Source: a virus
Virus record (IMG/VR): IMGVR_UViG_3300031775_000015
Span: 1 to 34,393 of that record
DNA: 34,393 bases
Strand: one strand, 5' to 3'
The notes under the pieces are model-generated. The model was not told the origin of the DNA. It was given only the letters and a program-made list of their open reading frames with translations, and did not search any database. Position 1 is the stretch's first letter; every line of letters starts with the position of its first letter. Shown piece by piece: positions 2,638 through 34,393 of the stretch. Made by a program: the position numbers and the translations under genes.

Positions 2638-3939
2638 TCACACTCCAAACCTACTTCTTTCTTGATTAAAATTTTCTTTTACTTCTTGGGCGGTTAATTC
2701 TGTTGAATAGACGGTAAATTTAGCTATTCTGCCATTCATGGGTCCTCCATCACCAGACCCTATCTTAAGAACCTGCGTGGAGGTTGGTACGTCAGCCGCA
2801 GTTCCTGCGTCTCTGAACACCCCATCTAAATACATTTTAACGCCGCCACTGGTCGTGTCCCCTGTGCTCGTTCCTGTAAAATGATACCATCTGCCCGTTG
2901 TGATATTACCGCTAAGGGGAATAGTACAGTCCGCGGCCCAATTAGTCCCCCAGCCAAACCTTAAGTTGCCATAAATCATAGACAACATGGTTCCACCAGC
3001 AGTATTCCAGTTCTCATCTTTTTGGAAGATGCTATCGTAAGTAGAACTAGCCGGAATACTATCTAAATAAAACCAACAGCTCCACGTTCTTGCCAACATT
3101 AGTGGTGACGAATGAGGTACCTGCACATAATCATCTGTACCATCAAAATCTAAGAAACCATGATCTGCTGGAAATATATTAAAGCCCACTTTGCTGGTTC
3201 TTTGAGTAGTTGTAATACCTCCAATCAGATCTCCATCATCTCCACCCAGCCCTAAATCTTTCCAACCATCAGTGGTACCACGACTAGTAGCAGCTATGGC
3301 ACCTGTTCCATTTAAAATAAGAGGAGTCATGCTATCTCGAGCTTCAAATTGAGGGCCAAAACACCATATTGTATCTCCTACCGTATTCCCAAAATAATTA
3401 CTGATATACAGTCCAGTTTCATTAGCTGCTGTGGCACTACCATATTGAAAAAGTCTTATCCATTCATTTGCAGGCCAATTTGCAGATCCACTAATACTTT
3501 GCTTGCCGTCGTAGCCTCCCCACACTAAACTACCAAGACTGGTATTGCCAACTATACCTCGGATATAAGGACCTCCTAATCCTTGTTTACTTTGACGATA
3601 CCAAACTGTAACTACATAACGAGTGCTAGCAGAAACGGCACATCGCCCCATGCCAAAATGCAGGCTCCCTACTGCTGTAATAACTCCTCTACATATATAA
3701 ATATTAGCCTTTTCATATCCTTTGGGCTTAGAAACATCAGATACATTATTAGTTCGTGTAAAAGACCCACTGTTAGCCCAATCATAAGCTTGGCCTAAAG
3801 TAAGGTCATATACTGCTGATTGATTAGTAGTAGGCGCTCCTGCGAAACTTGCTAATACACCAGCATCCAAAGCAAGCAGTATCTTACCACTTGCTCCTCG
3901 TCCTCTGCCACTTAATTTTGGTCCGCCTGATGTTGACAT
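2638..3939 (-). CDS. LamG-like jellyroll tail protein with CBM-like middle domain
   Basis: 433 residues. The N-terminus, MSTSGGPKLSGRGRG then LLALDAG, nearly matches that of the next upstream gene (MGTSAGPNIQGIGRG). Residues about 95-210 form a beta-sandwich ending in a QFEARDSMTPLI segment, the position of the QLE-S-TPF motif of CBM4/9-like modules. Residues about 260-433 form a LamG domain with FDGTDDYVQV, TWSCWFYL, GRWYHFTG, MYLDGVFRD, LKIGSG and FTVYSTELT. The C-terminus is ENFNQERSRFGV, the family tag. The start ATG has no strong Shine-Dalgarno and lies 5 bp after the upstream stop. A surface-glycan-binding virion protein is the best reading. Its position in the tail (side fibre or tip) is not shown by sequence. 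Confidence 0.88.
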   Translation of the reverse strand: MSTSGGPKLSGRGRGASGKILLALDAGVLASFAGAPTTNQSAVYDLTLGQAYDWANSGSFTRTNNVSDVSKPKGYEKANIYICRGVITAVGSLHFGMGRCAVSASTRYVVTVWYRQSKQGLGGPYIRGIVGNTSLGSLVWGGYDGKQSISGSANWPANEWIRLFQYGSATAANETGLYISNYFGNTVGDTIWCFGPQFEARDSMTPLILNGTGAIAATSRGTTDGWKDLGLGGDDGDLIGGITTTQRTSKVGFNIFPADHGFLDFDGTDDYVQVPHSSPLMLARTWSCWFYLDSIPASSTYDSIFQKDENWNTAGGTMLSMIYGNLRFGWGTNWAADCTIPLSGNITTGRWYHFTGTSTGDTTSGGVKMYLDGVFRDAGTAADVPTSTQVLKIGSGDGGPMNGRIAKFTVYSTELTAQEVKENFNQERSRFGV

Positions 3940-3944
3940 AATTA

Positions 3945-5846
3945 TTATTTTCCGAATCTATTTCTTTGTTGGTTAAAATTTTCTCTTACTTGTTGGGCCG
4001 TTAAGGCTATTCCGTATATCCTTATAGCTCCTATTTCCCCATCGAAAACCCCATACGGCCCACTTCCGAACTCTGCCTTTCCTATATCTAGATACATATC
4101 ACTTCCATCGTAAAAAGAGTCACCAGTATCGCTAGGAAGTTGATTTGGGGTAAGAAGGACCCCATCAACATAACGCCTAACTCTATGTGTAGCCCCTTGA
4201 TTTTCATCAACTACGTCTACCCAATGATGCCACCCAGCCGCTGTTAAGTACCCATCAGGCCAATAATAGCGCGTCCCGTAACCACTTCCGGTCATATACT
4301 GACCGCCGCCTATGGTTGTCCATTGCCACTTGTAATTATTTCCATGATCACCCATAAATAATAACGTCTTCGTTCCAGAGGTAACTCCTCTTACCCACGA
4401 CTCAATGCTTTTTTGACGCGTATTGCCAACTCTACACCCTTTCCCGCCTTGTATGTAATCATCTGTCCCATCAAAATCCCAAACCGCATTACCAATAGGC
4501 CTAATCACTTCACCAACCCTATAATTTGTAACGTCTGTCATGTCTTTGGTATTAAAATTGCCGCCATTATTGCTGCCACTTCTATCTACTACAGGAGCAT
4601 TTAAGTTGCGTCTTGTTGGAGGGGTAAAGTTGCCTGAACCCGACCACAAAGCAGTACCTTTTGTAATTCTTATTTCATCTAAATAACCGTCCCAAAGAAC
4701 ACTTGAACCGGAAGATCCAATAGAAATAACATCCGTAGAACCCATAGAGGTCCCCGAACTGTAATTATTACTTCCCTTATGAACTCCGTCCACCCAAACC
4801 CTAATCATGCCGAGCCTTCTTGTCACAGCCATATGGTGCCACGCTCCATCGCCATAATCACCATCGCTACCCCATATTATATTGTTCCCACCACTCCCGT
4901 TCCAATAAAGCCAAAAAGCATTTCCATCATTAAAATTCAAAGATATGTTTGAAGTAGCATAAGTTCCCATACTAATAGAATGCATTCTCTCTGTTTGGCC
5001 GCTATTCATATTAAACCAATAATCAATAGTCCAATCCCCCGTACCGAAATTACCAGCATCACTAGAAGCAACTTCTATCCGCTGGGAAGAGCTTCTTACA
5101 AATTTTAAAGCACTACCACCAAACTCAGAACTACCAGCATGAGACACTCCATTGGTATTAGTAAGAGCTAGCTTTTTGGGACTAGAATCCTCAAAAGTAG
5201 TTCCGGTGCCCACGTTCCCATGGATCATTAAATCAACAGAAGTGGGGCGCGCATTATATGTTCCCGTTCCACCATTACCCTCACGCACAAAAGGAGTGGC
5301 GTAGCTTTTTTGTTCTAATTGCGCATCAGCCAAATATACAACATCTCCCACTGTAGCAGAATTAGGAGGCTCTATTCCAACCTTTATGGTACCCGCACCC
5401 GTCACAGTCCCACTTATAGACACCCTTTGCCACAGACCAGTTAAAGTATAGTTTACGGTTGTGGCTGAGCCTGTTGCCGTACCCGCAAAATTAATCCTTA
5501 TGTCTCCACTTTTTCCCACGCTGCCCCCCACTCCTTTTACCCAACAGGAAAAAGTAAGACCCCCTGTTGCAACACTATGTACTAAATTAGAATAAATATA
5601 AGGATCTGCATTAGTAGCCGTTATACTCCCAGCCGAACCTCCGTTTGGACCTTCAGAAGCATTATTAGCAATAGTTCCATTTGTTTGCGTCCAGTCGGAC
5701 CCCGTCCAATTGTTAGGGTTTGAAAAAATATTAGAAGTAGGTTCGCCCGGATAACTCTTGGCATCGTGCGCGTCCATTTCCAAAACAAGGTTGGTTGCCC
5801 CGCCTCGTCCTATTCCTTGTATATTTGGTCCTGCTGATGTTCCCAT
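3945..5846 (-). CDS. CBM-like plus double LamG-like jellyroll tail protein
   Basis: 633 residues in three parts. After the N-terminal tag MGTSAGPNIQGIGRG and a LEMDAHDAKSYPGEP segment (the SYPG motif of phage jellyroll proteins), residues about 45-190 are a CBM4/9-like sandwich with FSCWVKG, LWQRVSISGTV and the closing QLEQKSYATPFV. Residues about 245-400 are a first LamG domain, including GDWTIDYWF, AWHHMAV, VWVDGV and YLDEIRITKG. Residues about 465-633 are a second, with WDFDGTDDYI, GWHHWVDV and RRYVDGVLL. The C-terminus is ENFNQQRNRFGK. The gene starts inside a TAATG overlap with the upstream LamG gene. Tag and order suggest duplication with the 2638-3939 gene. Function is inferred as multivalent glycan binding. 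Confidence 0.88.
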   Translation of the reverse strand: MGTSAGPNIQGIGRGGATNLVLEMDAHDAKSYPGEPTSNIFSNPNNWTGSDWTQTNGTIANNASEGPNGGSAGSITATNADPYIYSNLVHSVATGGLTFSCWVKGVGGSVGKSGDIRINFAGTATGSATTVNYTLTGLWQRVSISGTVTGAGTIKVGIEPPNSATVGDVVYLADAQLEQKSYATPFVREGNGGTGTYNARPTSVDLMIHGNVGTGTTFEDSSPKKLALTNTNGVSHAGSSEFGGSALKFVRSSSQRIEVASSDAGNFGTGDWTIDYWFNMNSGQTERMHSISMGTYATSNISLNFNDGNAFWLYWNGSGGNNIIWGSDGDYGDGAWHHMAVTRRLGMIRVWVDGVHKGSNNYSSGTSMGSTDVISIGSSGSSVLWDGYLDEIRITKGTALWSGSGNFTPPTRRNLNAPVVDRSGSNNGGNFNTKDMTDVTNYRVGEVIRPIGNAVWDFDGTDDYIQGGKGCRVGNTRQKSIESWVRGVTSGTKTLLFMGDHGNNYKWQWTTIGGGQYMTGSGYGTRYYWPDGYLTAAGWHHWVDVVDENQGATHRVRRYVDGVLLTPNQLPSDTGDSFYDGSDMYLDIGKAEFGSGPYGVFDGEIGAIRIYGIALTAQQVRENFNQQRNRFGK

Positions 5847-7945
5847 TATATAAATCTGCTTTTTTGTGCGTTATAGTTTTGTAGAATTTCTGCACGACTC
5901 AACGTTCGACCATAAATCTGACAATTAGCTATATCCCCCGTAAAATGACGGCCTGCAGTATATCCTACCCCTAAATACAAATCTGCTATGTCGCCGTCCC
6001 AAAGATAAGTCGAAGAGGATGTTGAAGTGGTAATTAAAGCTCCGTTTGTGTAAGTCTTAAGATTTTGACCAGTACCGTTGGGCGTAACTGTCAATACAAG
6101 GTTGTACCACACATCATTAGATAGACTGCCAAAGCTAATACTAACGTAATTCCCAGCATCTGAACTCATATATACACGAACAACACTTCCCGCAATATCA
6201 ACCTCCATTCTCGGTCCTTTGTTGTAAGTTGTTGCGCCATAATTACAATCATAAACATTTCCATAATTGTCTATTTGAACTCCTTTTCTCATCCATACAG
6301 AAATAGTACAGGAAGAAAATTCACCGCTGGTACCCAACGATCCAACGTCTACATAACTATGAGGTTCAAAGCCTATCGCACCAACATTTTTATGAAAAAG
6401 CGGAAAACCCTGAGTATCGCGGCCGGTGTTTACGTTTTTGCTACCGTTGTAACCTTCTTTGAAAAGTAAAGCAGAAGGAGAGCCATTAACCGTACCATTG
6501 TTGCTATTACTGCTACGATCTGTCCATGTTGTACTGCCATCGTTTCTCCAATAACCCACAACGTTTGAGCTATTACTCAAACTCATAGGGTTAGGTGGAA
6601 GTGGGCCACCATTAGGCCCGGTAGCGGCAAGAGCTTGAACTTGTGCTAAAGTAAGCACGGAGTCATAAGCCACCACCTCGTTAATAATGCCATCGAAATA
6701 AGCGCCGTAGTTAGCCCTTCCTATCCAGATTTCTTGGTTGTAAAACGTAATGGTGTCTGTTCTTGTGCTAGAGTTATTTAATACGCCATTAATATATATC
6801 TTTTGCGATCCACTTGTATGAGTGCAAGCAATATGAACCCAAGTATTAGATGCAGTAATATCGCCTGTTGTTTGCAGATCCCGATAGGTCATTCCATCAT
6901 TCCATGAAAAAAAGACCTTGCCATCACTCAATAGACGAACGTGAATAGCATAGTAAGGATTAGCATGAGAGGTAAAATCATAACTAAAAATTGCCCTATC
7001 TCCGCTCGGAGGCCCTACAGCGGGATTAACCCAAGCCGCAATTGTGTAATTTTGATTTGCAAGCGGGCCGGTGGAGGTAGATTCCACCTGAACATAGTCA
7101 CTTCCCGCATTACTAAACCACATTGGCCTATTGTAACCTGTAATTAATTGAGGGCACCCATTTTGACCTGATAAAAATTCATCATTATTGAAATTTTGAC
7201 CTACGCCCGAATTCTTATTCCCGCTTCCGTCATACGCAATAGCTCCCGTTCCCTCCGCCATGGAATACCATAAATCTAAAGAAGAAATCTGACTACCATC
7301 CGGTATAATTTCTTTCGAATCGTTATACATTTGCTTCACTTGCGCAGAACTCAAAGCTGTATTAAAAACTTTAAAATCTGACATTCTTCCATTAAAAACT
7401 GAACTACTCCAATAGCCCCCTACAATATTAACTGGACCGTTTACCGTGGAGCTGGAAGCAGACCCTCCTGAACCTAAAGCTTGAGTAGGGCCAGCGTCTA
7501 ACACCCCGTTAATATAAAAACTAACATAGTTCTCGCTAGTGCGCACCCAAACTAAATGTGTCCAAGTGGTAAGCGGAATAGTACTAGTAGAATAAAGGTA
7601 CCTCCAAGCTCCTGAATAATACTGATAAGCCATCTTACCACTATCCATGCCAAATCTCAAATTAACAGGACCTCCCGACTTGTTAGATAAAATATGCTGT
7701 GTACTCGAATCGGAAGATATCCACACCGACACGGCACAACCATTACTTAAAGTTATATCACTGGTAGTGTGAATGTCGTCGTCCGTCCCATCAAAATCAC
7801 AACATCCTCCGGTATACATGGTTCCATTAGTGCTGCCAGCACGATTATATAGTGTGGTAGCACTGCTAGCTGTGGACGGCATGAGTGCATCACCAAGAAA
7901 TTTGATACCGTCTGTTATTATTGTTGGACTGTAATTACTTGCCAT
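5846..7945 (-). CDS. triple LamG-like jellyroll tail protein
   Basis: 699 residues made of three LamG-like domains. The first, about 48-215, has DFDGTDDDIHT, TWTHLVWV, FYINGVLD and FKVFNTALSSAQV. The second, about 275-450, has SDYVQVES, YTIAAWVNP, TWVHIACTH, IYINGVLN and VVAYDSVLTLAQVQ. The third, about 520-699, has YVDVGSLG, CTISVWMRK, WYNLVLTV and CQIYGRTLSRAEI, then the C-terminal tag LQNYNAQKSRFI. The N-terminus MASNYSPTIITDG matches the family pattern Y-P-I/V-T-G. There is no enzymatic motif and no visible CBM4/9-type domain. Start and stop both sit in TAATG overlaps, so translation is probably coupled to both neighbours. It is likely a receptor-binding virion protein. Confidence 0.88.
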   Translation of the reverse strand: MASNYSPTIITDGIKFLGDALMPSTASSATTLYNRAGSTNGTMYTGGCCDFDGTDDDIHTTSDITLSNGCAVSVWISSDSSTQHILSNKSGGPVNLRFGMDSGKMAYQYYSGAWRYLYSTSTIPLTTWTHLVWVRTSENYVSFYINGVLDAGPTQALGSGGSASSSTVNGPVNIVGGYWSSSVFNGRMSDFKVFNTALSSAQVKQMYNDSKEIIPDGSQISSLDLWYSMAEGTGAIAYDGSGNKNSGVGQNFNNDEFLSGQNGCPQLITGYNRPMWFSNAGSDYVQVESTSTGPLANQNYTIAAWVNPAVGPPSGDRAIFSYDFTSHANPYYAIHVRLLSDGKVFFSWNDGMTYRDLQTTGDITASNTWVHIACTHTSGSQKIYINGVLNNSSTRTDTITFYNQEIWIGRANYGAYFDGIINEVVAYDSVLTLAQVQALAATGPNGGPLPPNPMSLSNSSNVVGYWRNDGSTTWTDRSSNSNNGTVNGSPSALLFKEGYNGSKNVNTGRDTQGFPLFHKNVGAIGFEPHSYVDVGSLGTSGEFSSCTISVWMRKGVQIDNYGNVYDCNYGATTYNKGPRMEVDIAGSVVRVYMSSDAGNYVSISFGSLSNDVWYNLVLTVTPNGTGQNLKTYTNGALITTSTSSSTYLWDGDIADLYLGVGYTAGRHFTGDIANCQIYGRTLSRAEILQNYNAQKSRFI

Positions 7946-9021
7946 TATTTATTATAAACATGTCTTTGAGCATTAAAATTCTGTAATATGTCGTCAGCGC
8001 CTAATATTTGAGTATAAGCTCTCACCGCTCCGATTTTTCCGTCTAATACCTCTCCTCCTGTACCGTTATAAGAAGCTAAGTTGAACCTTCCATTACTTCC
8101 AGTTCCTGTGCCAACAGTTGCTTGACCTACTTGGACTCCATCTAAATATGCAGTTCCAATTTTTGCAGAGTCTATCGTAAGAGCCATGTGGTACCACACA
8201 TTGGCAGAAATAGCAAACTGACCTACCCATGTATTTCCTCCCCCTCCATTTCGACCGGGTTTGAAATAGCCATTAAGAAATCCAATTTGAGTATAAGTGC
8301 CGTGTATCCCTAGTACCGTTTGCCAACCCGAACTAGTATCAACAGTCATAGCCCAAGCTTCTAAAGTTAAAGGCGTGTTATTAGCAGTAGGGACCATAGT
8401 GTCTACAGTTCTTCCGTAATCATCGGTATCATCAAAAGCAAAATATCTAGGCCCATTTAAGCCCCAATTGTGAAAAGACGGCCCATTATAAAGAGTAAAG
8501 TTAGCATCAGTGTCTTGAAGATTTGGGAATAAAGGGGTAGACACAAGGTTAGCCCAAACATGACGAGTGAATCTAAAATTAGAAACAGTTATATTTCCTG
8601 TGCCAAGAGATGAACCATGCCTCAAATAAAAGGTTATAAGTCCAGTAGCACTACAGTTTTTAGTCAAAGCAAAGGTTTGTTTAGTGGTAGAAGTGGCTAT
8701 GGTTGAATTAAACACATTATTATTTACTCCATCATTATCTAAAACTAAATTGGGCGATCCAGATTCAGCTACATAGTCAAACATAACCGTCCAATCTGTA
8801 GCCGAATCTATAGTTGCACCAAACCGCCCTATCCAACTATTATAAGTATCTAGTATTTTAACTGAATCTTTTCCTAAAATAACATAATTTGCCTGCTGAC
8901 TATTATAATCTGTCCATCCTGTATTAATGTCATAAGCATCAGGAAAAGAAAGACTTGCATTAGCATCTGCGCACATAACTAACCCATCTGTTACTATTCT
9001 TGCGTTATTGTGAAAAGCCAT
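7945..9021 (-). CDS. LamG-like jellyroll tail protein
   Basis: 358 residues from the ATG at 9021. The frame extends four codons further to a TTG at 9033, but the ATG is preferred because a GGAG box lies six bases upstream (9028-9031), one of the few good Shine-Dalgarno sites in the window. The N-terminus MAFHNNARIVTDGLVMCADA and a SFPD segment match the family. Residues about 35-170 form a beta-sandwich resembling a carbohydrate-binding module, with WIGRFGATID and GNITVSNFRFTR at its end. Residues about 195-358 form a LamG domain with FDDTDDYGRT, LTLEAWAM, VWYHMALTI, YLDGVQVG and GAVRAYTQIL. The C-terminus QNFNAQRHVYNK is a diverged form of the family tag. A role in surface binding is inferred. 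Confidence 0.87.
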   Translation of the reverse strand: MAFHNNARIVTDGLVMCADANASLSFPDAYDINTGWTDYNSQQANYVILGKDSVKILDTYNSWIGRFGATIDSATDWTVMFDYVAESGSPNLVLDNDGVNNNVFNSTIATSTTKQTFALTKNCSATGLITFYLRHGSSLGTGNITVSNFRFTRHVWANLVSTPLFPNLQDTDANFTLYNGPSFHNWGLNGPRYFAFDDTDDYGRTVDTMVPTANNTPLTLEAWAMTVDTSSGWQTVLGIHGTYTQIGFLNGYFKPGRNGGGGNTWVGQFAISANVWYHMALTIDSAKIGTAYLDGVQVGQATVGTGTGSNGRFNLASYNGTGGEVLDGKIGAVRAYTQILGADDILQNFNAQRHVYNK

Positions 9022-9022
9022 A

Positions 9023-10420
9023 TTATACTCCAAACCTTCCTCGTTGCGCTTGAAAATTTTGTACTATTTCGCCACGAGTTAAACCTTTTTTATAAACCCT
9101 GACACAAGCAATTTTACCATTAAAAAAGTAATCAGTCCCAGCGGCGTAAGCTCCAATCCAACAACCTCCACTGTTGGTACTGAGCGTTCCGGTAGCCGCA
9201 TCTGATGCTACTTCTGTGGTATTTTTATATAGTTTTTTTCTGTTACCATCGTAGGTAGCAGTTATCATGCTCCATTGCCCAGCCGTTGCGATACTTGAAG
9301 TGGCAACACTCGTATCATTTGAACTGGTTCCGTAAGTCCGGAAGTAACACGTTCCTCCAGCAGTAGTACTAAAAAATAAAGAATATTGCGTATTGAGTGC
9401 ACCCTTTTCAAAAATATGTCCAGTATGATTAGTATTAGTTGGATTAATCCATGCTTGTATTGTAACATTATTACAATTCATAGGTATAGCCCCAGCTTCA
9501 TCTTCCCCCTGCACTCCTTCAAAGTGCGTGTAATTACTCGGATTAAAAGTAAAATATCCACCATTAGTATTTCGGGTAAGAACGGGCCTATACTGAGCTC
9601 GCATATTAGAATTGCCGCATTGGTCAACCCATAAATCTTGTTCACTGGCTATACAATCCGCAATACTAGGATCGCTTCCATTTACTATATAACACTTGGG
9701 ACGACCCCAATAAATATCTACAGTCGGATCGGTTGAATAATAAAGATATTGGCGCTCATTAGCTTGAGTCTCGCTTGTATTGAAAATAGTGTTTCCTCCG
9801 GTATTGCAACCGAAACCCGATGTACTTCTTACTCCCTTGTTAGCGCCAAACATAGGATAAAAACCCCAATCTGAAACGTAAGGACTACCTCCCCCTCCTG
9901 CTACGGTACCCTCCGGAAACATATAAGAAATAGCTGCATACCAACCCCCCTCCGTAAAACTACCCCTACTTACACAAAAGTCATAAGGATTTCCTTGAGT
10001 GTTGCGATCAGACCATTGAAGAATGGTTTGGTTAACTCCATGGTTGCCGCCATATATGGTTCCGTTAGCTCCCTTCTCTATTACTTTAAAATAACGAACC
10101 CAGCGATATAAATTTGATCGAGTAATACTAAAAGCACTACTATTCCAACCTCCATCGGCACCACTGCTTGAATCATTATTGTAAGCTCTCCATATTATTG
10201 CCCTGTTGCCATGCGGGTCCGTTCTGTAAACTCTCGAGTTTTCACTGGTAGATCCATTTTGACCCCAATTACCAATACCTCCAGTACCAAGTTGCCATTC
10301 AGTAAAATGCTCCATGGCATCGGTGCCACTAAATTTGGTGGTGCTAGGTATTTGCGCTGCATCGACCGCGAAAACTAAAGAGTTTCGCGCTGCTAGAGGT
10401 ATTCCATAACTACTACTCAT
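9023..10420 (-). CDS. LamG-like jellyroll tail protein with large unassigned N-terminal domain
   Basis: 465 residues. The N-terminus MSSSYGIPLAARNSLVFAVDA matches the family pattern. Residues about 30-285 are an unassigned domain rich in Gly, Trp, Tyr and Asn, with a small cluster of Cys residues (CNTGG, KCYIVNG, ADCIAS, DQCGNSN) that other family members lack. It contains TDPTVDIYWGRPKCYI, in the place where relatives carry CBM-like sandwiches. Residues about 290-465 form a LamG domain with HFEGVQG, VTIQAWINP, QWSMITATYDG and ACVRVYKKGLTRGEI, then the tag QNFQAQRGRFGV. The start overlaps the end of the large fibre gene by 8 bp, so it is the first gene of the LamG array. A host-binding function is inferred from the fold. 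Confidence 0.87.
   Translation of the reverse strand: MSSSYGIPLAARNSLVFAVDAAQIPSTTKFSGTDAMEHFTEWQLGTGGIGNWGQNGSTSENSRVYRTDPHGNRAIIWRAYNNDSSSGADGGWNSSAFSITRSNLYRWVRYFKVIEKGANGTIYGGNHGVNQTILQWSDRNTQGNPYDFCVSRGSFTEGGWYAAISYMFPEGTVAGGGGSPYVSDWGFYPMFGANKGVRSTSGFGCNTGGNTIFNTSETQANERQYLYYSTDPTVDIYWGRPKCYIVNGSDPSIADCIASEQDLWVDQCGNSNMRAQYRPVLTRNTNGGYFTFNPSNYTHFEGVQGEDEAGAIPMNCNNVTIQAWINPTNTNHTGHIFEKGALNTQYSLFFSTTAGGTCYFRTYGTSSNDTSVATSSIATAGQWSMITATYDGNRKKLYKNTTEVASDAATGTLSTNSGGCWIGAYAAGTDYFFNGKIACVRVYKKGLTRGEIVQNFQAQRGRFGV
9028..9031 (-). promoter_or_regulatory. Shine-Dalgarno site deciding the 9021 start
   Basis: On the minus strand the sequence reads GGAGTATAATATG. GGAG lies six bases before the ATG at 9021. 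It overlaps the codons just before the upstream stop (9023-9025) and decides this start against the TTG at 9033. Most other starts in the window lack such a box. Confidence 0.7.
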
Positions 10421-20160: not shown

Positions 20161-21607
20161 TAGATGGAAATCCTCCAAAAGGTAGCCCTAACCTGTAAAT
20201 ACCGTACTCTACATATCTACATTTACATCCATTTAAAGTTTTAGAGCATTGATCGCTACGCCATGATTGCATGGTATAACGAGGGTCAGAGGAAGTAGCC
20301 ACCTCTTCAATGCATACATAAAATTGATCAGGCCGAGTTTCTAAATTTTCTTGGGTTTTGGTTACTTCTTTTTTAGCAATATTTTCTATTTTGGATATTA
20401 TTCTTATAACGTCCCCTGCTACATATTTGGTGCTTCCTACTAAATTGTCAGCTAAAGCGGCACTTAAAACACCCGAAAGTGATGCGGCTGTTTTGGCTGC
20501 ATCCGTATCCAATTTAAGAGTAGCGCCGGTGCTGAAAACAATTGTACGATCTTTGTCTATAGCTGCGGGTAATGCATCCACACTTACAGTTTGGGCAACA
20601 GTGCCTACTTCATTATCAGCCACAGAGTCTCCGTCGCGAAAATTTCCTGAAACGGAAACCGCGGTCGCCCCAGCCAAAGAGCTTAAGGTAAACTCCGCCC
20701 CATTAGCAAAAGTAATGACCTTACCACTAGCAATGGCAACTGGCAAAGAATCCACAGTCATTGAAGTGTCACCGTAAGCATAACCAGCGCCATTATTGAT
20801 CGTCACCGTAGAAAGAGTAGCAGCTCCATCGGCTGTTACCGTTACACTATCTTTGACATAGTCTCCGCACCAATTCAAAGTTAAATTGTATCCCTCTGGA
20901 GTAGTAAATTTTTTATTATTTTCATCAGCAAGAGGAATGCCTAAATTTACCCCATTGTCATTAGCAAAAAATTCAGTAGGAGTAACTGCTTTCTGATTAG
21001 CCATTGTCACCGCTTGCTCTTTAAAATCCGATCTTTTGCCATAACTGCATCCTTCCCCTCTATACTGCCATGGACAATAATCAGCAATCATTGTTCGAGC
21101 CGGCACTTGTACATCTTCCAGTTCTAAGGGAGAAACAAGCTCCCACTCTATATAGTATTTATTTTCCTGAGTTTTGCGATTAATAGTAAAAATGTCATCG
21201 TCAAAACGAGAATTAGGATCAGGGATAGCAAAAGGATTAAAGTTATCAGGAAAATTTTCATTATCCAAAAACTTCATAAAAATTCTTTTCCGAATAATTG
21301 TATTGCCAATAAGATCCCCTCTTCTTTTGATTGCATCACTTATGAGCCCTTGAGGATTAGCCATTAATAACTTTGGCCTCGGCAATGATCCGTCCCCTTT
21401 CATTTCCCATCCACTTGTTTCAATGGGCAGTGGATAATAAGTTTGAAGTTCACCTTGAGCATCACTTAGCATTATATCTTTTAAGTTATTTTTGCCGGGA
21501 TGAAAGCGATACAAGCCATCTTGTTCCCCTAAATCAATTTCATATAATTCAATTAAAGTATCGGGCTCTAAATCAAGTAAAGCTGTATTATGTGATTGTG
21601 TAGACAT
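20138..21607 (-). CDS. L: minor tail protein L with inserted domain pair
   Basis: 489 residues, about twice lambda gpL (232). The N-terminal half (1-200) reads as gpL: DLEPDTLIELYEIDLG, then WEMKGDGSLPRPKLLMAN, then CPWQYRGEGCSYG with C178 and C187. The C-terminus has CSKTLNGCKCRY (C454, C461, C463) and ends in LPFGGFPS. These cysteines correspond to the set that holds a 4Fe-4S cluster in lambda gpL. Between them (about 250-400) lies an insertion not in lambda, containing two copies of a module: LPVAIASGKVITFANGA near 288 and LPAAIDKDRTIVFSTGA near 346. A third relative sits at the end of the upstream 1126-residue protein. The gene starts 6 bp after the upstream stop and overlaps gpK. Role: tail-tip component above J. 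Confidence 0.93.
   Translation of the reverse strand: MSTQSHNTALLDLEPDTLIELYEIDLGEQDGLYRFHPGKNNLKDIMLSDAQGELQTYYPLPIETSGWEMKGDGSLPRPKLLMANPQGLISDAIKRRGDLIGNTIIRKRIFMKFLDNENFPDNFNPFAIPDPNSRFDDDIFTINRKTQENKYYIEWELVSPLELEDVQVPARTMIADYCPWQYRGEGCSYGKRSDFKEQAVTMANQKAVTPTEFFANDNGVNLGIPLADENNKKFTTPEGYNLTLNWCGDYVKDSVTVTADGAATLSTVTINNGAGYAYGDTSMTVDSLPVAIASGKVITFANGAEFTLSSLAGATAVSVSGNFRDGDSVADNEVGTVAQTVSVDALPAAIDKDRTIVFSTGATLKLDTDAAKTAASLSGVLSAALADNLVGSTKYVAGDVIRIISKIENIAKKEVTKTQENLETRPDQFYVCIEEVATSSDPRYTMQSWRSDQCSKTLNGCKCRYVEYGIYRLGLPFGGFPSIEKYRYQ
20172..20176 (-). promoter_or_regulatory. Shine-Dalgarno site for gpK inside gpL
   Basis: GGAGG on the minus strand, within the last codons of gpL (the GGFPS segment). 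It is 11 bases before the TTG at 20158-20160. The spacing is a little long, but no ATG is available, so this supports a TTG start. Confidence 0.5.
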
Positions 21608-28911: not shown

Positions 28912-29877
28912 TTAATCTTTGTTGTAGTAGTCTTTAAATTCTAAATTTACACTTAAAACACCATCCACGGCAGACTCAATACTTTCTGAGACTAAATGCC
29001 CTGTTGTGCTTAAAAATTCATATCTTGTTATTCCATCACCATCATCGCCCAAACAGTTACCTACGTTATCATTTAAGCATAAATTGCCCGTAACTGCGGG
29101 TATATTAGTATTGCCATCTAATGTGTCTTCTTTTCTTCCTAATCGAATTTCAACCCCAATTGTTTGATAATTACCACTACGGATATTATCTATCATATTC
29201 GCAGTTTCATAATCATCCATTTCTATTGTTAAATTAGTAGTAATTTCAATGGGATATTCTGTTATTACTTGAGATGGAGTGTAATAACTTTCGTCAGTTT
29301 TTTGGTCTAATGTATAAATAGGGACACGATTAATATCGTAAGTTTGGGAAACCGATACAGCTCGATTTGTCCCCGAGCCATTAAAAGTTAAAAATACAGC
29401 TTCGTGATTAACGAAACCTAAATTTTGAAGAGGAGCGGTGCCCGAGTAGTCTAATTCACCGTATCTTTCACCGCTCCCCATCTGGCCAAAAACAGCAAAC
29501 GTTGTCTCTATTGTAGGGACATCTTGAACATCGCAATTTATACTATAACTAGTCAGATAACCAGTATTAAAGCCATAAACTTTTTCAGCTCCATTCATTT
29601 CCACATCATATAATAATGTGCCAGAAACGGGAGACTCTCCTGTCAGACCCAAAACCGGATCTTGATAAAGTAAATCTCGAGTCATGGATAACTCGCCACG
29701 CAAAGGTTCGGCTATTATTTCACGGATAAACCCTGCGCCTAAAGCTCGAACCTTCTTTTGCCCAACACTATAGCCCGCACTGATATTGCGGATACCCGAC
29801 ACTCCTGTTCGACTAAGAGCGTTATCGCCTCCCAGATAGAAGATTTGTTCATAGCTTGGTGAAGCGTTATTAGCCAT
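28912..29877 (-). CDS. tail-tube-like structural protein, paralogue of 26214-27011
   Basis: 321 residues, beta-rich, with no named family recognised. Landmarks PLRGELSMT (58-66), TGESPVSG (79-86), GYLTSYSIN (106-114) and FAVFG (127-131) occur in the same order and at nearly the same residues as in the 265-residue protein two genes downstream. A second half (about 200-321) contains EITTNLTIEMDDYETANMI and ends with VDGVLSVNLEFKDY, again strand-rich. It contains the LCLNDNVGNCLGDDGDG segment, an acidic loop that might bind metal. It starts in a TAATG overlap with the tape-measure stop. Possible roles are a second tube protein, a distal tail protein or a tape-measure chaperone. Confidence 0.82.
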   Translation of the reverse strand: MANNASPSYEQIFYLGGDNALSRTGVSGIRNISAGYSVGQKKVRALGAGFIREIIAEPLRGELSMTRDLLYQDPVLGLTGESPVSGTLLYDVEMNGAEKVYGFNTGYLTSYSINCDVQDVPTIETTFAVFGQMGSGERYGELDYSGTAPLQNLGFVNHEAVFLTFNGSGTNRAVSVSQTYDINRVPIYTLDQKTDESYYTPSQVITEYPIEITTNLTIEMDDYETANMIDNIRSGNYQTIGVEIRLGRKEDTLDGNTNIPAVTGNLCLNDNVGNCLGDDGDGITRYEFLSTTGHLVSESIESAVDGVLSVNLEFKDYYNKD

Positions 29878-32800
29878 TATGGTGTTCTACTTTTTTTACT
29901 TAAAGATCCGCCTAAACGTTGTTCTTGTCCAATTACTTCAAGGACCGCAGCTCGAATTCTTTCTGCCATTTCTTTTCCTTTTGTGGCTTGATCCACATTA
30001 GATTGTTCACTTGCATTAGCGTTGCCGGCGGACTCAGAGGCTCCTTGACCTCCCCCTCCACTGCCGCCCATGCTAACATTGATGGATATATTGTTAGTAT
30101 TAGCTCCACTTTGAGCGTTTAATGGCGCAGCGTCAACTCCCCCTCCAGCTTGCATTGTTGGAATAACACCTCCGTTTAAACGACCCATGAATCCAAGACC
30201 GTACTTGCGCACCGCCCGATTGTTCATTACAAACTCGCCGCCTGCCATGTAAGCTGGAACACTATCGCGATTGGTAAACCCTGAACCTATATGACCTCCT
30301 CTTGCATTTCCCGGCCCCCATCCTTTCCAACTATCAAAAGCAGTTTCGGGCCTACCGGCAACAGCAGATTCAGAGTAAAAAGCTCCACCACTTCCAATAT
30401 TACGATGCATTGTTTTGTCGCCCGGACCTCCAACAGTAGCGGGATTTTTTGCACCAAATTTTCCTGCTGCCATACCCATTAATTTACCAACCCCCATGCT
30501 AGCTACTGTACTCAAGAAAGTAGAAAGTAGTTGTTTCTTTTGGGCCTTTTTTTCAGCCTCCTTCGCTAAACGTTCTCTTTCAGCTTCGCGTGCTTCAGCT
30601 AATTCTGGATTATCTGATGCAAGAAAATATCCACTCATTCTGCTGCTGTGCACACTCTCATCTAATCCCATGCTTCCCCCATTAGCGAAACGAGGGAAAG
30701 CGCCGAAATTCATTTTATCTAAATTAGCTCTACCAATACCTTTAACGGCCTTACGATTCATTACATACTCGCCCGGCTCTAATAGAGAAGGCACTTTATC
30801 GCCCGTTCCAGATCCCGGTACAAATGCACCATTTTGAAGTCCAGAGTTGCGAAATCCGGGGCTTATGCCCATTCCCATCAAACTGGTCAAGTTACTCATT
30901 GAAGATTCAAGTGCAGCTCTACGCATCATTTTTAACATATCAATAGCCACTCCTCGCATTGCATCACCAAAACTATCAGCTTTGTCCATTGCACTTTCCA
31001 TAGCTCCAACCATTCCATCTTTGAAAGCGGTAGGTAAATCTTTGCCTAATTTATTGAAGATTAAATCTGTGTCTTGAAATACTTTATCAAAACCATCTTG
31101 TAGTCCTGCTGAAAATTCGGTATTGCGCTTAGCTTCGCGGTTTCCTATCTTTTCATCTAAATTTAATTGTTCTTTTAAGTATTCAATTCTTTTAAGTAGT
31201 TGATCGTTATTCCCTTCAACATCTTGATTGTATTGTTGTTCTAATTGATTGATTTCTTTTTGTATAGCACCTTGAGCGCTTCCTGATCCGCCAGCGCCTC
31301 CAACAGCAGCGCTTCCTCCTGACGAACCAATACCAGTAAAACCCATTTTTTTCAAATTTTGGTCAATATACATTTGACGAATATCAGAATTGCTGGCACC
31401 GCCTGCCAAAGCAGCAGCCGCTCCTGTTACCCTCATCTCTCCTCCTTTATCAAATTCCTTGCCAAGACCTTCTCCTATTATAATAGCACCTAATTTTTCA
31501 GTTGCTTCTATTAATTTCTCGTCAGCCCCTATTAAAGCTAAATTAGATTGAATCAAAGTTTTTTGCATCTCAAATTCCATCTTTAAATTAACGTTATCTG
31601 CTTTAACGCGAGCTTCATCCATTAGAATTTGTTTTTGTAAAACAGCTCTTTGATCAGCAAATAAACGCGCTGTATTTTGTCGATTTGTTAAACCTCTAGA
31701 TGCAGCAGGATCTTGAGATCTTTTTTGCATCATGCTTATTTCTTGTTGCAGGCGCATTTGCTCTAACTTATTGAGATTTTCTCTTTCACTCAAAGAAAGC
31801 TTTTGGGCTTTTTGTAGATCGCGCTCTTGAACTAAATTTTTCGCTTTTATTTCTTCTATTTTTTGCTCTGCTGAAATAACGGTTCCTTGAGCTGCTATAT
31901 TTGCTTCTTGAATTTCATAAGCTCTTATAAGCGCGGCTGCAGCATTTCTAAAATCTTGCGCTTTAGGAAGCTCTGTACCTGACTTTGCAAACACTCCCAT
32001 ATTAGGCGCTGCCCTTCTTTGTAACTCACCGGCTATTCCGGGCGCAGAAGGTCGAGGTCCTGTAGTCAACTTTAGCATTTGTGTGGCTTTGGCTGGGTTA
32101 GTTAGTAGCGTTTTAGAAATGTCTTCATAAGCTCCTAGTTCAGCACTTCCTTGAGGGAAAGCTTTGTCAAAAGCAGTACGTAAACTTTTTTGTTGAGTTA
32201 TACCAAATTTCTGACGAGTAGCTCTATTATCTAAAACTCTCTGTCTATTAGTTGCGTCTGCTCTGAACCTTGTTGCTCCCACTTGATCTCCTACTACATT
32301 TCTAATGTCTGAGCCAATTTTAGATAAAGCACTATTTAGAGTTTTGAAAGCATCTTTAAATTTCGCTATTGGGGTATCTTTTATAGCATTTATAGAAACA
32401 TCTAAGTCTTTATTAATTGCTGTAAAGCTTGTTTCAAGTTGTTTGACGAGTTTGTATTGCTTGTCGCTTGCATCCTCTGCTGCTTTTGCTTCTGCTGCTG
32501 CTCTCATAACACCAATCATAATATTTTCCATATCGCCAAGTGACTCAACAAAAGCGTCACCCTTGAAAAGAGATGCAACTCTCTGAAATACGTTACTCTT
32601 AGCCTCCCCCGGCTTACTCTTAAAAAGTTTTTCGTCCAGAAACATATCATCGAATATGTCTTCTCGAAGCTCAAGAAATTTCCTAGTTAAGTCATATACA
32701 TCATTTGGTGATTCTTTAACACCACGAGCTATTGTTGAGATCTCTTTAGCTTCCTCTGCATTAAAATCTAATATTTCAAAAAAGTCTTTAAATTCATCGA

Positions 32801-34346
32801 CGAATGCCGTTTGAGTTTTTTTGCCATAACCGGCTACGGTAAGGGCTTTATTTTTGCGCAATATACCTTCCTCTGTTGTAGGCTGATTTAGATCAGACGT
32901 AAGGGCCATCATATTGTTTCCCTTGCCTAATACTCGATCTTGAAAGCCAAACTTATTTGCTGCCCTGATGGTTTGACGACCTGTACGTTCAGCCACAACT
33001 CCGCTCGTAAATGACTTCAACGCAACAGTCATCTCATCTACATTGGTGCCTGCCGCTTTAAAATTCTTTTCCAGTTGTGTGCCTTTGATTTTTTCAAAAT
33101 TATCTTTTAGTGCTATTTGTGCTGCTTTGAGTGCGTCTGCTGAAGTAGGATTATTAATTTCTTCTTGAGCTTTGATAATATTTTGGGCCGCGCTATTCTG
33201 CTCTTTGGAAGTTTTTTCAAACTCAGTAAATTCTGCTTCAAGTTCATCCATTCTTGCGCCTACCCTTAAGCTTGAAACCGCAAGACTGCCAAGGGCTCCT
33301 ACAGCAGCTCCAGCAGCAGCGCCCCATGGACCAGCCAACATACCAATAGCAGCTCCAGTACCCGCCATATTCATTGCCCCGGTCGTATCACGACTAAATC
33401 CGGCCTGCTCCATTGCGCCAGCAGCCATAGGAAGCCCCATTGAAAGCCCCATGCCAACCGCCATTCCTCCCATACCTCCCATACCACCTCCGGCAGAGCT
33501 AGGTTTTTTCCCAGCAATTGCCATAGCTGAGGATGTGGTTTTAACTCTGGCCTGTAATGTAGTTAATGCCGCTCCACTTTTGCCTGCAGCCGACCCTAAA
33601 CGCTGAGTAGCTCTCATCGCTTGGGTTTCAGTTATTTCTTTTTTAGATAACTTTAAAGCCACTTTATCTAGTATTCTCTGGAATCTGGTGAAACCATTAT
33701 TTAGGCCGGCTAATTGCTTATTAGTTTTTCCTACTACTCCACTAACATCTACTCCCATAGGATCAACATAATTAGGAACGTAACCTCTTGAAGCTCCAAC
33801 TACATCTGCCAAACCTCTAGGCTCATCGCGCGTATTTGTAACGCCTAGACCAGCAGGATTATTAGGGCCGGCCAATCTACTTGATCGTCCTACCCGAATA
33901 GATCCCATAGGAACTCCAGCGGCTAATTCTCTTTCTACGGAATCTCCAAGTGCGGCGAAGTTAGGCACATAACCTCTAGCAGCCGCTCCCATGGTAATAG
34001 GTAGAGACTTACCGAAGTTCTTCATAATTTGTTCGGTAATTTTTGTTCTGTTGCCTGATGACCAGCTTGACTTGGCATCTGCGTGTGTTGCATTTACTGC
34101 TGTACCAGTTATACCAAAAAGATCTTCAGCATTTTTACCTGCTTTGCCTGACAATAATATATCTAAAGTGGAACTATTTTGTTTTCCCTTCTCGTATTGT
34201 TGGCCTACTAATCTGTCTACAACAGCTTCAAAAAGTGCACCCTTGAACGCGCCCATCGCACCAGCCCCACCTTCTTTTAAAAATGAACCTTCTACTTTCT
34301 TTTTATTAACCGGTCTGCCACTATGAAGCGCGGGACTGTAAGCCAT
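29877..34346 (-). CDS. tail tape-measure protein, start possibly outside the window
   Basis: At least 1489 residues. N-terminal residues about 30-115 contain GALFE (E40), STLDIL (D62) and HADAK (D90, K92), a possible PD-(D/E)XK nuclease-like module. Two linkers, RGYVPNFA (124-131) and RGYVPNYV (187-194), flank a module with IRVGRSSRLAG and GLGVTNTRDEPRGL. Residues about 285-360 are a hydrophobic Gly/Ala/Met segment. The middle (about 360-1060) is mostly helical coiled coil (EEIKAKNLVQERDLQKAQKL). The C-terminus has two copies of a tape-measure ending: GDKVPSLLEPGEYVMNRKAV (near 1190) and RDSVPAYMAGGEFVMNNRAV (near 1370). At about 1.5 angstrom per residue the tail would be roughly 220 nm, more if the gene extends upstream. 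The ATG at 34346 has no clear Shine-Dalgarno and the frame stays open to the window edge. Confidence 0.93.
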   Translation of the reverse strand: MAYSPALHSGRPVNKKKVEGSFLKEGGAGAMGAFKGALFEAVVDRLVGQQYEKGKQNSSTLDILLSGKAGKNAEDLFGITGTAVNATHADAKSSWSSGNRTKITEQIMKNFGKSLPITMGAAARGYVPNFAALGDSVERELAAGVPMGSIRVGRSSRLAGPNNPAGLGVTNTRDEPRGLADVVGASRGYVPNYVDPMGVDVSGVVGKTNKQLAGLNNGFTRFQRILDKVALKLSKKEITETQAMRATQRLGSAAGKSGAALTTLQARVKTTSSAMAIAGKKPSSAGGGMGGMGGMAVGMGLSMGLPMAAGAMEQAGFSRDTTGAMNMAGTGAAIGMLAGPWGAAAGAAVGALGSLAVSSLRVGARMDELEAEFTEFEKTSKEQNSAAQNIIKAQEEINNPTSADALKAAQIALKDNFEKIKGTQLEKNFKAAGTNVDEMTVALKSFTSGVVAERTGRQTIRAANKFGFQDRVLGKGNNMMALTSDLNQPTTEEGILRKNKALTVAGYGKKTQTAFVDEFKDFFEILDFNAEEAKEISTIARGVKESPNDVYDLTRKFLELREDIFDDMFLDEKLFKSKPGEAKSNVFQRVASLFKGDAFVESLGDMENIMIGVMRAAAEAKAAEDASDKQYKLVKQLETSFTAINKDLDVSINAIKDTPIAKFKDAFKTLNSALSKIGSDIRNVVGDQVGATRFRADATNRQRVLDNRATRQKFGITQQKSLRTAFDKAFPQGSAELGAYEDISKTLLTNPAKATQMLKLTTGPRPSAPGIAGELQRRAAPNMGVFAKSGTELPKAQDFRNAAAALIRAYEIQEANIAAQGTVISAEQKIEEIKAKNLVQERDLQKAQKLSLSERENLNKLEQMRLQQEISMMQKRSQDPAASRGLTNRQNTARLFADQRAVLQKQILMDEARVKADNVNLKMEFEMQKTLIQSNLALIGADEKLIEATEKLGAIIIGEGLGKEFDKGGEMRVTGAAAALAGGASNSDIRQMYIDQNLKKMGFTGIGSSGGSAAVGGAGGSGSAQGAIQKEINQLEQQYNQDVEGNNDQLLKRIEYLKEQLNLDEKIGNREAKRNTEFSAGLQDGFDKVFQDTDLIFNKLGKDLPTAFKDGMVGAMESAMDKADSFGDAMRGVAIDMLKMMRRAALESSMSNLTSLMGMGISPGFRNSGLQNGAFVPGSGTGDKVPSLLEPGEYVMNRKAVKGIGRANLDKMNFGAFPRFANGGSMGLDESVHSSRMSGYFLASDNPELAEAREAERERLAKEAEKKAQKKQLLSTFLSTVASMGVGKLMGMAAGKFGAKNPATVGGPGDKTMHRNIGSGGAFYSESAVAGRPETAFDSWKGWGPGNARGGHIGSGFTNRDSVPAYMAGGEFVMNNRAVRKYGLGFMGRLNGGVIPTMQAGGGVDAAPLNAQSGANTNNISINVSMGGSGGGGQGASESAGNANASEQSNVDQATKGKEMAERIRAAVLEVIGQEQRLGGSLSKKSRTP

Positions 34347-34393
34347 GATTACATTTTCAGCAGCTATACGTAATGAGTCATCTAAAATATCTT
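34347..34393 (-). other. in-frame open extension upstream of the tape-measure ATG
   Basis: These 47 bases contain no stop in the tape-measure frame and would encode DILDDSLRIAAENVI, a protein-like amphipathic helix. The other two minus frames have stops (TAG at 34382-34384 and TGA at 34378-34380), either of which could end an upstream gene. The sequence cannot decide between a tape measure that starts upstream of the window and a short intergenic stretch. Confidence 0.5.

Follow-up and report, generated by a model that had tools for sequence, protein, structure and literature searches.

The polyvalent proteins of phages and plasmids gather multiple unrelated enzymatic domains, are linked to the virion and are presumed to enter the cell early by injection (Iyer et al. 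2017, PMC5512222). In the Thermus phage P23-45 a virion RNA polymerase is fused to the tape-measure protein (TMP), and a role at the pore while the genome enters has been proposed for it (PMC10770324). Tme is a TMP-related endonuclease effector of the contractile injection systems of Streptomyces davawensis, and its endonuclease was shown to be active (PMC11126660). In ICP1 an intronic HNH gene lies within the TMP gene and is spliced out at the RNA level (PMC10448857). Finally, according to a survey of phage protein mosaicism, signals of mosaicism are frequent in TMPs, but no genuine recent case could be confirmed (PMC10684548). Multi-domain virion-linked effectors and TMP-borne enzymes are already known kinds; the part of the literature that was searched describes no TMP whose internal array is swappable and bounded by a dedicated linker.

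The window analysed here is a whole stretch of viral DNA of 34,393 nucleotides, and its minus strand carries a TMP gene (Table 1). The ORF, which ends at 29877, is open up to the edge of the window; the complete gene lies at 3694-10515 of L003, a 62.9-kb contig of the same phage, and encodes 2273 aa. The preliminary description had placed a nuclease-like module at the start of a TMP: the ATG at 34346 is in fact the internal Met785 of the 2273-aa protein (via identity to the end of P0001). Nor does the longer contig, at 62.9 kb, bear out the "giant" phage that it had in mind. By its length, its place in a tail operon and its similarity to known TMPs, the protein is to be taken as a genuine tail TMP. 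This identity follows from the match to the tape-measure family phrog_339 of PHROG, from the likeness of its first 400 aa (about 26%) to proteins annotated as TMPs in phages of Bacillus and Lactococcus (tblastn), and from the lambda-like tail operon that comes after it: tail-tip L-like, tail assembly, central fibre J-like and fibre genes. Elsewhere in the window, at 2638-10420, five consecutive tail genes match portions of phrog_8510, a family of virion proteins 1348 aa long; this looks like the duplication or splitting of one large structural protein. The tail-tip L-like gene repeats, at 20350-20376 and with 89% identity, 27 bases of the TMP gene (33620-33646), probably by chance.

Table 1. 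Features of the tape-measure gene within the window.
Feature	Position	Strand	Basis
Tail TMP, C-terminal two thirds (aa 770-2273 of 2273)	29877..34391	-	open frame, L003 full gene, phrog_339 1.3e-6; 5' end beyond the window
Nuclease-like cassette, C-terminal part	33975..34391	-	alignments A1, A3; core dN/dS about 0.1
E40 = TMP E824, in helix, invariant 26/26	34227..34229	-	A3, AF2 model
D62 = TMP D846, D 25/26, E 1/26	34161..34163	-	A3
D90 = TMP D874 of DxK, predicted strand, invariant 26/26	34077..34079	-	A3, AF2 model
K92 = TMP K876 of DxK, invariant 26/26	34071..34073	-	A3
GYVPNF linker ending the window cassette; such linkers are exchange boundaries in relatives	33957..33974	-	linker scan, breakpoints
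Inter-linker block of about 60 aa, conserved (AGVPMGSIRVGRSSRL..NPAGLGVTNTRDEPRG)	33786..33956	-	73-95% identical though the preceding cassette differs
GYVPNY, last linker of the array in the window TMP	33768..33785	-	linker scan

A search with the TMP N-terminus recovered 109 relatives, 80 of which were kept; together with the module searches this gives 81 distinct TMPs. At least one segment delimited by linkers of the pattern G[YFL][VIL]PN[FYL] (GYVPNF/GFIPNF type) is present in 77 of the 81, for 256 segments overall, which form 65 clusters; in 52 of these the first member is 120 aa or longer. The segments, hereafter cassettes, begin at about residue 545-650 of the TMP and run to its C-terminal half. 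The number and total length of the cassettes differ widely (TMPs of 1713 to over 3800 aa), and the region after the array is poorly conserved (36-61%). In the window TMP, the GYVPNF that the preliminary description saw after the module is there and is followed by a GYVPNY, both lying just outside 33990-34346, the interval it had given. Its statement that such modules and linkers recur in phage structural proteins is borne out in the TMPs, but not in the other long ORFs of the TMP-bearing loci, where no linker was found. The codons of the linkers differ at synonymous positions (fraction of identical codons 0.67, with 0.54 expected), which indicates that the constraint bears mainly on the peptide; on the same ground a fixed DNA recombination site at the linkers finds no support. 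Transmembrane segments flanking the array were dropped as an argument: with a strict hydropathy cut-off, just 20 of 69 TMPs have them both before and after it. The block that follows the last window cassette reads IRVGRSSRL..NP.GL.VTNTRDEPRG, and other TMPs have a short conserved block (SLEENISGN...) at the corresponding place. The TMP N-terminus also occurs in contigs binned with marine MAGs, a connection too weak to name a host. Two near-identical TMPs with six-segment arrays, L115 and L117, belong to one Halobacteriovorax MAG (PBIO01000001.1 and PBIO01000004.1); this is possibly a host hint or a binning artefact.

Cassettes are swapped between near-identical TMPs, with breakpoints at the GYVPNF/GFIPNF linkers. 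Several TMPs whose N-termini are 93-99.8% identical have unrelated cassettes. In L062, L065 and L066, for example, the N-termini are 99.6-99.8% identical over 530 aa, yet the cassette at the same position is of the GDAK kind in L062, of the SNase type in L065 and of the GEAK kind in L066; for L062 and L066 (N-terminus 99.8%, DNA 93.6% over 11.4 kb) the first large cassettes are unrelated. L054 and L055 are 94% identical over the 10 kb before and the 6.5 kb after, only the last cassettes being replaced. Over 166 breakpoints from 23 TMPs—derived from pairs that share backbones, so that not all are independent—DNA identity stops at a median of 6.3 aa past the linker start, that is at the last codon of the linker, and resumes 0.0 aa from the start of another linker, at its first codon. 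Breakpoints at most 12 aa from a linker make up 89%, vs 18% for random positions. The pairs compared here differ from the outcome of the mosaicism survey (PMC10684548): they are recent and clean domain-level exchanges, visible at the DNA level, whose boundaries fall at a named peptide. Several arrays, L055, L056, L057 and L070 among them, were met again in independent metagenomes with their linker spacing unchanged, which makes assembly chimeras unlikely as a cause of the swaps. For L054/L055 and L079/L081 the flanks compared are about 94-97% identical on either side, and none of the neighbouring genes there changes along with the cassette; the reading as polymorphic toxins with a linked immunity gene is rejected for these two pairs.

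Database searches give an identity to only a minority of the cassettes, most families having none. The clearest class is that of the staphylococcal-type nucleases (SNase): the cassette of L087 (L087:11397-11981) matches Pfam at 2e-9, above the gathering cut-off, and its alignment to a solved thermonuclease shows the equivalents of D21, R35, D40, E43 and R87, which we take to be the catalytic or key residues of that enzyme. The same cassette matches positions 1098-1274, in the middle of phrog_8809 (2317 positions, function unknown), a family that may be another one of cassette-bearing TMPs. The L065 cassette is assigned to the SNase type by its clustering with that of L087 and a sub-threshold Pfam match (E 0.014). 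A GNAT acetyltransferase cassette is also above the gathering cut-off (Pfam 7e-5). The P-loop (GPAGSGKST), HAD-like (DFDRT, DYDYT), ART-like and ParB-like cassettes are putative assignments, made from motifs seen by eye or from sub-threshold matches. P-loop cassettes (L027:83-583, L028:8509-9000, L030:8050-8541, L073:6741-7265) in some cases share arrays with HAD-like ones, resembling a kinase/phosphatase set. The ART-like motif (LFRG ... PFVSxS; L058:10802-11377, L069:7693-8268, L088:12612-13241) belongs to a cassette that sits between otherwise near-identical cassettes and has no Pfam match above threshold. Against the PADLOC library of defence proteins, cassettes gave only weak and scattered matches. 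Among the cultured or named phages of INPHARED, the only cassette relatives are SNase-like hypothetical proteins of Moraxella phage Mcat8 and Microcystis phage Mae-JY22.

The largest class has the signature E...D...[D/E]xK. A strict form of this pattern, drawn up after the sequences had been inspected, occurs in 21 of the 52 clusters vs a mean of 2.25 and a maximum of 7 in 300 shuffles; it is found in 68 of 160 cassettes, and in 30 of 535 pieces that lie outside the cassettes in these TMPs. The invariant residues include E85, D116 and E127-x-K129 in family A4, and E92, D140 and K156 in family A5. In profile comparisons the core of the window family aligns with several other cassette families in such a way that E, D and [D/E]xK coincide, and at the DxK column of the window family the L111_c0 cassette has ELK. 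Classes are mixed within one protein: the L063 TMP combines nuclease-like cassettes with the GNAT one, the L087 TMP an SNase with an E-D-ExK cassette.

The window module belongs to this class. It measures about 280 aa (TMP 637-917, L003:5602-6429), and the window has its last part, from aa 770. Its relatives were taken from IMG/VR and none was found in bacterial genomes; alignment A3 comprises 26 sequences with 15-83% identity to the module. G36, F39, E40, D90 and K92 (window numbering) are its only invariant columns, and F77 is F in 25 of the 26. The four residues on which the preliminary description had based its active site are placed as it said in the minus-strand ORF read from ATG 34346, and they are conserved in the homologues (Table 1) far beyond chance. 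The catalytic half of the module has a dN/dS of 0.09-0.12 in the pairs where dS is estimable; by this measure the core of the family is under purifying selection. Yet this half is only 36% identical to that of L011, with flanks at 81-82%, and 26% to that of L013, with flanks at 76-87%.

The preliminary description had proposed for these residues the core of a PD-(D/E)XK nuclease. The hallmark of this superfamily, an ordered and conserved E ... D ... (D/E)xK, is found in the window family. The AF2 model built on A3 (pLDDT 79, pTM 0.70) has a helix 176-195 that contains E188, a short strand after D210 followed by two helices, a strand 236-239 with D238 and adjoining K240, a helix 245-262, a strand 265-267, and a beta region at the N-terminus. 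The glutamate helix and the DxK strand thus fit the proposal, but helices replace the beta hairpin expected between D and DxK. Foldseek with this model against PDB and BFVD, the check suggested for a restriction-endonuclease-like fold, returned no significant match. The module matched nothing in Pfam, PHROGs or NCBIfam, neither PD-(D/E)XK nor any other nuclease family, and nothing among the PDB sequences; profile searches of PDB with A3, A4 and A5 found no nuclease, and the model of the A5 family (pLDDT 54) was too poor for use. The conserved motif is thus the one point in which the window cassette could be likened to a known nuclease, all other similarity tests having failed, and its PD-(D/E)XK fold is putative, a proposal at the level of the motif.

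Among the systems mentioned above, the polyvalent proteins (PMC5512222) resemble the array in composition. As judged from domain signatures, a single polypeptide such as the TMP of L063 or L087 likewise brings together several unrelated enzyme-type domains, and GNAT, ART and ParB-like types recur. By contrast the carrier is here a TMP, the joints are repeated GYVPNF linkers with cassette exchange at the DNA level, and the hallmark zincin-like peptidase is absent, like any other peptidase family, from the best 25 of the 32 Pfam families matched (98 cassettes). P23-45 (PMC10770324) shares the building of an enzyme into the TMP; its RNA polymerase is a single N-terminal domain with a defined job, and no exchangeable internal array or nuclease is described for it. 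Tme has in common a TMP-like carrier with an endonuclease-type domain, putative in our case, but its nuclease is of the EndA type, single, C-terminal and part of a bacterial injection system. Polymorphic toxins (CdiA, Rhs, T6SS; PMC3482391) also have a conserved carrier and swapped domains, toxin-like and including many nucleases; unlike theirs, the cassettes are internal and multiple, and in the flanks compared no companion gene co-changes. The ICP1 case also has a nuclease within the TMP gene at a site of exchange, whereas the cassettes are in-frame protein domains of several enzyme classes. Finally, the window module resembles the PD-(D/E)XK superfamily by its ordered and strictly conserved E, D and (D/E)xK, and departs from it by the lack of any family or structure match, the long helical stretch from D to DxK and the additional N-terminal beta region.

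The sequences establish an in-frame, linker-delimited and exchangeable array in the TMP, enriched in nuclease-like signatures and with at least one class that its sequence identifies as a nuclease. Concerning its role, we give an even chance to the cassettes being exchangeable enzymatic cargo, mostly nuclease-like, which the TMP bears and which probably passes into the host on ejection; both activity and delivery are inferred. The best indirect argument for E-D-DxK cassettes being nucleases is their exchange with SNase-type ones on near-identical backbones. Several points count against such a cargo: the failed fold test of the window module and its lack of a PD-(D/E)XK family match, the small share of cassettes with a database identity, the motif pattern having been written after inspection, the unexplained fit of folded cassettes within the tail tube, and the lack of a cultured relative with these cassettes in INPHARED. 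The cassettes could instead be spacers of the TMP, structural or DNA-handling, that grip the leading DNA end or adjust tail length; the conserved residues would then bind metal or DNA without cutting, and the swapping would be neutral mosaicism in a region that tolerates it. The wide variation in cassette number and total length, the poor conservation of the region after the array and a module fold that matches no nuclease all speak for this alternative. We nevertheless hold it to be rather unlikely, given that residues of catalytic type are among the few invariants, that the core dN/dS is about 0.1, and that the SNase and GNAT cassettes retain the key regions of their enzyme families, which spacers do not need.

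The window module might be an enzyme other than a nuclease; its alpha/beta fold would be one not yet recognised, with a D-x-K centre, and its substrates in the infected cell would be nucleotides, alarmones or proteins. The helices that AF2 puts in place of the hairpin, the failure to match a restriction endonuclease and the presence of non-nuclease enzymes among the neighbouring cassettes all agree with this. The order E-21-D-27-DxK followed by a helix suits the PD-(D/E)XK plan, as does the ELK of L111_c0, a D/E alternation typical of that superfamily, and the swapping of such cassettes with SNase-type ones points the same way, so that we find a non-nuclease enzyme improbable. One could also take the nuclease cassettes for selfish elements, inserted in frame and behaving like homing ones, which would cut other or cassette-less TMP genes and spread by repair, the linkers providing the homology. 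The PD-(D/E)XK fold is found in some homing enzymes, and the exchange happens at fixed sites. TMP genes are, besides, known targets of homing (ICP1, PMC10448857). Yet the cassettes are in frame within a single polypeptide, with no sign of intron or intein by eye; those of the GNAT, P-loop and HAD-like types, which are not nucleases, behave alike; and the synonymous variation of the linkers leaves no fixed DNA site. Among the Pfam matches (98 cassettes, E<=0.05), the best 25 of the 32 families include no HNH, GIY-YIG, LAGLIDADG or intein domain, a test that covers homing enzymes other than those of PD-(D/E)XK type. Homing of this kind seems to us very improbable.

If the cassettes are enzymatic cargo, the one in the window would be a metal-dependent nuclease working like the PD-(D/E)XK enzymes. 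Several siphophages are considered to eject their TMP when they infect (see also PMC10770324). The TMP would carry the cassette inside the tail, and upon infection the cassette would leave with it through or into the cell envelope, then act once, early, on nucleic acid of the infected cell. Candidate targets would be the host DNA, resident plasmids, rival phages or mobile elements, and nucleic-acid-based defence. The phage's own genome might be spared by the few copies of the TMP, by timing or by DNA modification. Because the TMP must remain in frame and functional, the linkers would act as safe joints: a joining at about 18 bp would swap whole domains and leave the tape-measure core untouched. 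Such fast swapping is suggestive of an arms race in which the targets vary or the host takes counter-measures.

TMPs are viewed mainly as rulers and pore formers. It is conceivable, at a little less than even chances in our judgement, that in a lineage of aquatic siphophages the TMP carries fast-changing effectors—nucleases of several unrelated folds, and other enzymes—with a hexapeptide linker marking the swap points, and with a one-time delivery by the tail for which no immunity gene is needed. If the cassettes are indeed active enzymes ejected at infection, the tail would serve to deliver a cargo that varies, and the array would amount to a natural catalogue of effectors, many of families yet unknown, that could be cloned and assayed singly.
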